A stretch of 64,000 nucleotides of DNA from Ornithinibacillus sp. 4-3 (GTDB lineage Bacteria; Bacillota; Bacilli; Bacillales; Amphibacillaceae): positions 1,894,001 to 1,958,000 of the forward strand of contig NZ_CP162599.1 in NCBI RefSeq assembly GCF_040958695.1, read 5' to 3'. The translations under genes were made by a program, and so were the position numbers. Positions within the stretch are counted from its first letter, which is position 1; each line of letters starts with the position of its first letter. This document shows, in pieces, positions 32,505 to 33,745 of this stretch. The notes below the pieces were generated by a model. The model did no database searches. It had not been told where the DNA came from and saw only the letters and a program-made list of their open reading frames with translations.

Positions 32505-33008
32505 TTATTGATGAAAATAATTGCTTGCATATCTCTTTATTAAATAAGCGATAACTGGATAAAGTAACGCCATGAAAATACCATTACCAATGGCATGATT
32601 TGTATCATGCGATAATCCCATTACATAATAAGGCCAAAAATGCCCTGTTACCTGATAGGTCATTAAAGAGATTACAAAACCATAAAAATATCCCGCAATA
32701 ATGGATAAAATTACTAATATATAAATAGGAATTTTCTTAAAGTATCTTCCAAGTAGACCAGATAATAGACCAATAAGCCCCCAGGAAATAATCTGAGCAA
32801 TTGCCCACATTCCCATTCCCAAGGTAAGGTTGGATAAAATTGTAATCAATAAGGCTAGAATCACTGCAGCAATACTTCCTAACATTAAACCCGCGATCAT
32901 AATAATTACTGTCGCAGGCTGAAATCCAGGAATAAATACAAATAAATTTCGACCGACAATAGCAATTGCTGCTAGAAAAGCTAATAATGTAATTTTATAA
33001 GTATTCAC
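32505..33008 (-). CDS. ECF transporter S-component, probably cobalamin-related
   Basis: The 167-residue protein has about six membrane helices and the general pattern of energy-coupling-factor S-components (NTYKITLLAFLAAIAIVGRN, with a later PYYVMGLSHDTNHAIGN). It begins six bp after the DUF4430 lipoprotein and shares its cobalamin riboswitch, so cobalamin or a precursor is the likely substrate. CbrT/CblT-type S-components are known for corrinoids or the lower-ligand base, but membership is inferred from regulation, not a search. No EcfA/EcfT genes lie nearby, so it should share the general energising module encoded elsewhere. Confidence 0.8.
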   Translation of the reverse strand: MNTYKITLLAFLAAIAIVGRNLFVFIPGFQPATVIIMIAGLMLGSIAAVILALLITILSNLTLGMGMWAIAQIISWGLIGLLSGLLGRYFKKIPIYILVILSIIAGYFYGFVISLMTYQVTGHFWPYYVMGLSHDTNHAIGNGIFMALLYPVIAYLIKRYASNYFHQ

Positions 33009-33014
33009 GGAACA

Positions 33015-33428
33015 TTATTCCCATGATTGTAAATCGAGATTTACTTTATCGCCTGCAGATAATTCAAATTCAGCAGCTCCTACCATAGGCATTTCATCAT
33101 TCACAAAATACATCCATGCTTTCTTTTCACTTTCATCTGCTTCCAAACCATCAACAGCAGTAATCATTCCGCCAGTTTCTTCAATTTCGAAGTTTTCCTT
33201 TAACACGTCCATTAAAATGGCTCCTTCTTCAAAAGATACTTCTTTCTCTGTAAGTACTGTGTCTCCCTCATCTTGAGAAATTGTAATAACCGCTTTCTCT
33301 TCAGCAGATTGTTCTGTGTTATTTGAGTTATCATTCGTTTGATTTTGGTTTTCTTCTGTAGAAGAACACCCTACTAATAACATAATTGTAATAAGTAATG
33401 ACAACATTTGTAGTAAACTTTTTTTCAT
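33015..33428 (-). CDS. DUF4430 (transcobalamin-like) lipoprotein
   Basis: The 137-residue lipoprotein has a signal peptide ending LLVGC with Cys21 as the lipid anchor, then a polar Asn/Glu/Thr-rich linker, then a domain from about residue 45 with the DUF4430 pattern (ILMDVLKENFEIEE, KKAWMYFVNDEMPMVGAAEF and LSAGDKVNLDL). This fold is related to the small C-terminal domain of transcobalamin and intrinsic factor. It is the first gene after a cobalamin riboswitch and precedes the ECF S-component by six bp. The reasonable inference is that it captures corrinoids outside the membrane and passes them to the S-component. Confidence 0.85.
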   Translation of the reverse strand: MKKSLLQMLSLLITIMLLVGCSSTEENQNQTNDNSNNTEQSAEEKAVITISQDEGDTVLTEKEVSFEEGAILMDVLKENFEIEETGGMITAVDGLEADESEKKAWMYFVNDEMPMVGAAEFELSAGDKVNLDLQSWE

Positions 33429-33488
33429 CTTTTACACTCTCCATCCTATATCTTTAATCTTTTTATGTAAATTCTGGATAAAATCAAA

Positions 33489-33520
33489 AAACAGCTAACT
33501 CGTCTAAGAGCTAGCTGTTT
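33489..33520 (-). terminator. Riboswitch expression-platform terminator
   Basis: A 13-bp stem (AAACAGCTAGCTC with GAGTTAGCTGTTT, one imperfect pair) is followed by TTTGATTTT on the minus strand. It lies between the cobalamin aptamer and the lipoprotein start codon, so binding of cobalamin should favour early termination. Confidence 0.85.
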
Positions 33521-33539
33521 GACAATCTGAATTATTTCA

Positions 33540-33745
33540 TGCACAAAAATATGCAAACCTCGTCTTGCCAATAGCTCTTTCCTCGGAGTTATTGATACAA
33601 ATAGATTTTGGCAGGTCTTCTGACTTGTAACATCTAACCTACTTTAAGCCCTTCCCATATACATGTATACAGTGGTTTTGCTTATTTCGTAGTTACTTAC
33701 AGTTGCGAGGACAGTTCTAGATTTTCACTAGATTCCCTTTTACAG
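33540..33745 (-). promoter_or_regulatory. Cobalamin (AdoCbl) riboswitch
   Basis: The minus strand carries the hallmark B12 box AAGTCAGAAGACCTGCC (reverse complement near 33611-33627), the upstream conserved blocks GGGAATCTAGTGAAAATCTAG, GAACTGTCCTCGCAACTGTA and CCACTG...GGGAAGG, in the order expected of the class-I cobalamin aptamer. A terminator hairpin follows. It controls the DUF4430 lipoprotein and the ECF S-component. Boundaries are approximate. Confidence 0.95.

Follow-up and report, generated by a model that had tools for sequence, protein, structure and literature searches.

A cobalamin riboswitch-led operon pairing a CbrT-like S-component with a DUF4430 lipoprotein, a putative corrinoid-capture subunit, in Ornithinibacillus

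We analysed a 64,000-nucleotide stretch of Ornithinibacillus sp. 4-3 (hereafter, the window; contig NZ_CP162599.1, positions 1,894,001 to 1,958,000 of the forward strand), in which a cobalamin (vitamin B12) riboswitch, a terminator, a DUF4430 lipoprotein gene and the gene for an S-component of an energy-coupling factor (ECF) transporter form one unit on the minus strand (Table 1). We consider it probable that this operon encodes a CbrT-type S-component, likely the B12 subunit of an ECF importer, together with a lipoprotein that captures corrinoid and passes it to CbrT. The riboswitch, the two protein families, the invariant pairing of their genes, one EcfAA'T module and the genes nrdJ, pduO and queG were identified from sequence and searches, and the transcobalamin (TC) beta-domain fold of the lipoprotein is predicted by modelling.

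The two proteins of the operon

Among the open reading frames (ORFs) at 27000-40000, the operon comprises the lipoprotein and S-component genes only, spaced by 6 bases. The initial annotation of this DNA had described just such a riboswitch-led unit of two genes, which is borne out by the matches to RF00174, DUF4430 and PF12822 and by this spacing. The riboswitch scored 87.6 bits against a gathering threshold of 31.5 bits, placing it in the RF00174 family, and it extends 37 bases past 33745, where that annotation had ended. The S-component matched PF12822 (E 7e-11) and has the six-helix fold. It matched 6fnp_A with an E value of 3.1e-17 as a single sequence (residues 4-155) and 6.3e-34 by profile, and CbrT was by far its nearest solved relative by sequence. 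The relationship to CbrT spans the full length and the genomic setting is one of B12 use, in agreement with the corrinoid-type S-component proposed earlier. The idea of a "two-part surface system" does not hold, because an S-component requires an EcfAA'T module. One such partner is present in the genome, seen as a single PF02361 match with two ABC ATPase genes just before it, and sits in what we take to be a ribosomal-protein cluster, between rplQ and truA.

DUF4430 is the sole match of the lipoprotein over the Pfam cut-off (E 6.6e-21), and all 41 of the close relatives aligned retain the lipobox cysteine, C21. A fold prediction, proposed by the initial annotation as a check on the TC small-domain fold that it had assigned to this protein, returned that fold. 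The model fits 5np4, 4kki and 2pmv, the beta domains of TC, haptocorrin and intrinsic factor, over 93-96 residues at 1.4-2.4 Å, so that profile and predicted fold both point to a DUF4430 beta domain, accompanied by a weak haptocorrin sequence match. Unlike these carriers, the window lipoprotein is bacterial and lipid-anchored, its corrinoid binding is putative, and its chain of 137 amino acids holds DUF4430 only; it was not filed as a TC because the alpha-alpha barrel domain is absent from the chain. The noncanonical B12-binding proteins of zebrafish, reportedly described by Benoit in 2018, also differ from it in being animal proteins without an ECF partner. The isolated TC beta domain binds one face of the corrinoid, and TC beta binds cobinamide (Cbi). 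The fold relationship of DUF4430 is already reflected in database names, such as a UniRef name beginning "Transcobalamin-like C-t".

The usual BtuFCD uptake genes had been called absent. None was found among the ORFs at 27000-40000, the annotated part of the window, and none of the five PF01497 binding proteins in the genome passes the NCBIfam BtuF cut-off (best score 42.4 against 234). Because of this, and because the other B12 riboswitch of the genome precedes a ribonucleotide reductase operon, the absence is supported but not proven. BtuF belongs to PF01497, and S-components have no relationship to the BtuFCD permease. No PF01497 match to the lipoprotein was seen at E ≤ 1, and it is not a BtuFCD member; the likeness is that BtuFCD, too, relies on extracellular or periplasmic corrinoid capture to feed an ABC-type importer. 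CblT, the alpha-ribazole S-component, has the kinase gene cblS as its partner; no cblS lies in the two-gene operon, and the genome was not searched for it.

Co-occurrence of CbrT and DUF4430

Among 398 sampled genomes from the class that the window belongs to (Bacilli), 137 had a clear CbrT and 141 a DUF4430 match, and all 137 were within the 141. The four further DUF4430 genomes had E values of 3e-4 to 6e-4, and 138 of the 141 pass the DUF4430 cut-off. A clear CbrT was defined by E ≤ 1e-15, a split set after the values had been seen, within a gap from 3.4e-19 to 5.5e-7 among the matches listed; the 18 genomes with only weaker CbrT matches (155 minus 137) were excluded, and none of them is among the DUF4430 genomes. 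The Fisher test on this co-occurrence ignores phylogeny, and at least six family labels (f2, f18, f22, f27, f41 and f44) mix genomes that have both genes with genomes that have neither. In the control Bacillus subtilis, the riboswitch family was present and DUF4430 was not found. Since every genome of the sample with a clear CbrT encodes DUF4430, CbrT and the DUF4430 lipoprotein would cooperate in capturing and importing B12.

In close relatives the pairing is fixed, all 80 loci compared (the best 80 of 193 confirmed relatives) having the lipoprotein gene immediately before cbrT; the nearest CbrT relatives among named records are Virgibacillus, Oceanobacillus and kin. A cobalamin riboswitch precedes the lipoprotein gene in 67 of the 80 (14/17, 16/17, 11/17, 14/17 and 12/12 by batch). 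Across the 111 of the 137 genomes with DUF4430 coordinates listed, the two genes were at most 350 bases apart in 43 (DUF4430 upstream in 22 and downstream in 21) and 0.66-4.75 kilobases (kb) apart, with DUF4430 upstream, in 65, always on the same strand. The other three had them 12.5 kb apart, 577 kb apart and on different contigs. As order and distance vary among genomes, the association is independent of one inherited gene order. By profile match, the element shared across genomes is the DUF4430 domain, and its carrier is not always a lipoprotein.

We surveyed gene neighbourhoods in 20 regions of 19 genomes and scanned 18 proteins for domains. Some of these neighbourhoods connect the pair with B12 use or with transport. 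The gene orders nrdJ-cbrT-DUF4430-pduO (L181) and pduO-DUF4430-cbrT (L183) were found, and in genome G091 (L177 and L178) cbrT adjoins queG and the only DUF4430 match lies 577 kb off, both genes being kept though unlinked. A toroid domain (squalene-cyclase/prenyltransferase type) exceeded the Pfam cut-off in four of seven large DUF4430 proteins (L165, L166, L168 and L170) and was below it in the other three; the four DUF4430-toroid genes lie upstream of cbrT. S-layer domains were also found in L165, L166, L168 and one of the L167 proteins, which makes four of the seven. The predicted combination of DUF4430 and toroid is the two-domain make-up of TC, found in bacteria near a CbrT-type S-component. 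In L165 the DUF4430 gene stands in a row with a gene that matches no Pfam family, then a double ABC ATPase and then cbrT. The ORFs between the DUF4430 and ATPase genes (L165 8601-9491 and L171 7270-7998) had no Pfam match at E ≤ 0.001 and are probably divergent EcfT subunits missed by Pfam.

B12 use, the proposed uptake route and the setting of the operon

The genome encodes the B12-dependent enzyme NrdJ (587 bits to TIGR02504; 1638 bits to PRK08115), PduO and a TIGR00276 match that we take to be QueG, and a genome search returned no PF02310 B12-binding-domain enzyme. Two cobalamin riboswitches were detected in the genome. The second (genome G000, C1:3624092-3624276, in L001 and L003; 116 bits) precedes an NrdA-flavodoxin-like-NrdB operon, the B12-independent ribonucleotide reductase, and therefore implies a B12-dependent choice between two ribonucleotide reductases. 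No riboswitch was found within the 12-kb surroundings of nrdJ (L017). Likely, both riboswitch units are silent and NrdJ serves when B12 is plentiful, and uptake proteins and NrdAB are made when it is scarce. Directly downstream of nrdJ lie two ORFs that resemble transposases (by eye, of IS3 type; L017 3533-5091).

We propose that scarce B12 would lead to transcription of the window operon, and that the lipid-tethered lipoprotein would bind one face of the corrinoid in the manner of the isolated TC beta domain. CbrT would then cover the other face of the corrinoid or receive the ligand, possibly in a sandwich like that between the two TC domains, after which EcfAA'T would drive the S-component over and the ligand would be released inside. 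PduO would adenosylate the corrinoid for NrdJ, and the second riboswitch would shut off NrdAB. A broader proposal, which we hold tentatively and rate somewhat below an even chance, is that Bacilli have a B12 ECF importer with an obligatory lipid-anchored TC beta domain that docks on CbrT with the ligand sandwiched, and that the S-layer DUF4430-toroid proteins are bacterial two-domain transcobalamins.

The features of the operon are collected in Table 1. The hairpin behind the S-component gene was not returned by the terminator scan, whose loop limit its loop exceeds. The operon is flanked by a presumed ResDE-like pair on one side and a presumed SigX-like sigma factor gene on the other (names from the B. 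subtilis order). Of the 80 related loci, 79 have a ResD relative upstream, 78 have a ResE relative there and 51 have the sigma factor on the downstream side; because these neighbours recur, the location looks old. Two of the loci are unusual: L060 (3573-5811) carries the lipoprotein-cbrT pair in tandem with identical ORFs, a recent duplication or an assembly error, and L038 resembles Virgibacillus relatives yet has a record titled Roseburia sp., possibly mislabelled or contaminated.

Table 1 Features of the riboswitch-led operon in the window
Feature	Position	Strand	Basis
Cobalamin riboswitch aptamer (RF00174)	33593..33782	-	cmscan 87.6 bits, E 3e-20
Repeated palindrome that makes up the riboswitch 5' arm (P1/P2 side)	33748..33784	.	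ends taken from sequence
Intrinsic terminator between riboswitch and lipoprotein gene	33489..33520	-	13-pair stem and T run
DUF4430 lipoprotein, TC beta-domain-like, predicted corrinoid-capture subunit, 137 amino acids	33015..33428	-	
CbrT-like ECF S-component, GTG start, 167 amino acids	32505..33008	-	
Hairpin and T run after the S-component gene, probable operon terminator	32462..32503	-	by eye

Contrary evidence, alternatives and meaning

A number of observations weigh against corrinoid capture under B12 control, some of them from the riboswitch itself. The 5' end of the aptamer is a palindrome (TGTTC...GAACA), and at least 38 further partial matches to 33733-33788 were found in the genome (40 of 106 candidates scored), with a repeat copy of similar ends just behind the operon at 32358-32449. 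The only other genome representing the genus showed no DNA match to this region. P1 is formed in relatives by pairing between the 5' and 3' arms. In this strain the two arms gave at best a duplex of -7.7 kcal/mol, weaker than all those of the 52 relatives measured (-24.4 to -9.7, median -14.9; 52 of the 67 riboswitch-bearing relatives, with 15 left out for want of a motif match), and P1 is thus poorly paired. Ligand binding may persist because the rest of the aptamer aligns well to RF00174, and switching in this strain is probably weakened because the arm pairing is poor, a prediction from pairing energies. The "clear B12 riboswitch with terminator" of the initial annotation therefore stands as to family score and 13-pair terminator, but not as to clarity, given the palindromic 5' arm and poor P1. 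The promoter scan gave no sigma-70-type match before the riboswitch and one minus-strand promoter-like match 3' of the terminator (33471-33443), which would bypass the switch; promoter matches were at chance level (4 observed against 7.9 expected). Thirteen of the 80 related loci have no cobalamin riboswitch despite keeping the gene pair (L027, L031, L038, L046, L059, L066, L067, L070, L073, L074, L083, L084 and L086), and eight of the 13 are labelled Oceanobacillus. The window also holds three matches to RF01690 (Bacillaceae-1 RNA; 650-716, 55464-55532 and 55572-55639); the copy at 55464 adjoins a repeat end like that of the riboswitch, and such RNAs may ride on that repeat family.

Further contrary points concern the lipoprotein and its association with CbrT. 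At E ≤ 1 no TC was recovered by sequence with profile A1, and the broader profile A3 reached haptocorrin at 0.0019 and TC beta only at 0.46, while an unrelated thioredoxin-family lipoprotein scored alike (0.002) via a signal-peptide match. N110 is invariant in the bacterial set but changed in haptocorrin, and the closest solved fold, 3u7z, carries the deposition name "putative metal binding protein". Some DUF4430 partners are large S-layer proteins, and for the L181 partner the alignment shows no lipobox cysteine. Mirror-tree partial correlations did not single out the pair (r = 0.32 for lipoprotein-CbrT, 0.40 for lipoprotein-ResE), and the genes adjoining it in L173-L175, L179 and L182 have no B12 role by eye. 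Methanosarcina acetivorans encodes DUF4430, as does another control, Lactococcus lactis; CbrT was not sought in either. Lastly, according to PMC5997447, the ECF-CbrT of Lactobacillus delbrueckii (6FNP) transports in Escherichia coli and as a purified complex, and the word "lipoprotein" does not occur in the text of that paper. That system shares with the window a full-length homologous S-component, EcfAA'T in the genome and a B12 gene setting, whereas the window operon has a leading riboswitch and a directly paired DUF4430 lipoprotein, and the L. delbrueckii cluster runs nrdJ-cbrS-cbrT-pduO.

Because the published ECF-CbrT works without a lipoprotein, the lipoprotein may bring its gain when B12 is very scarce or when corrinoids are bound, or may serve as a lid and not as a catcher. 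In the last case CbrT alone would import B12, and the lipoprotein would be an obligatory accessory that stabilises or gates the S-component and binds no corrinoid. The sufficiency of the L. delbrueckii complex in PMC5997447 fits such a role, as does the link of the lipoprotein to CbrT itself even with genes 577 kb apart. We nevertheless regard it as unlikely: the predicted lipoprotein fold matches that of a domain proven to bind corrinoid, and together with the DUF4430-toroid fusions, as in TC, this suggests ligand binding rather than mere scaffolding. It is less probable again that the pair is tuned to cobinamide or other cobamides rather than cobalamin, with the lipoprotein setting the specificity. 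CbrT binds cobinamide besides cobalamin, and TC beta does bind Cbi, but control by the riboswitch, together with NrdJ and PduO, indicates that the useful product is a finished cobamide. That the pair carries a non-corrinoid ligand and is merely B12-regulated seems highly improbable: S-component ligands are hard to infer from sequence, but CbrT is by far the nearest solved S-component, and the partner fold and the nrdJ, pduO and queG neighbours in L177, L181 and L183 are B12-related.

Corrinoid capture by the lipoprotein for CbrT is not a wholly new idea, because the consulted part of PMC9963975 prints the protein name "Additional lipoprotein component of putative cobalamin ECF transporter" (K8Q211, L. 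rhamnosus), the same role as proposed here, given as a name without experiment; the paper further mentions a DUF4430 protein encoded next to rtpR, and K8Q211 is probably the DUF4430 protein. Already known, then, are CbrT, the DUF4430 fold relationship in database names and the accessory lipoprotein as a database name. The literature searched, in the parts available and with subscription papers outside the search, contained no test of a bacterial DUF4430 protein (including PMC4350170, PMC9963975, PMC11835882, PMC9801417, PMC5997447 and PMC6593275), and no report of the complete co-occurrence, the unlinked persistence, bacterial two-domain TC-like proteins near CbrT or the altered riboswitch.

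In ECF transporters the S-component itself is called the substrate-binding protein (PMC5997447). If the proposed capture is true, it would add a capture step to the ECF scheme, giving an ECF transporter its own extracellular binding protein, and would provide a role for DUF4430, which is currently labelled a domain of unknown function. For this bacterium, which has no model-recognised BtuF, the operon is a possible source of B12 for NrdJ. More broadly, it would represent a bacterial side of the B12-carrier family and would link the animal carriers to bacterial uptake, a link testable with small soluble proteins.
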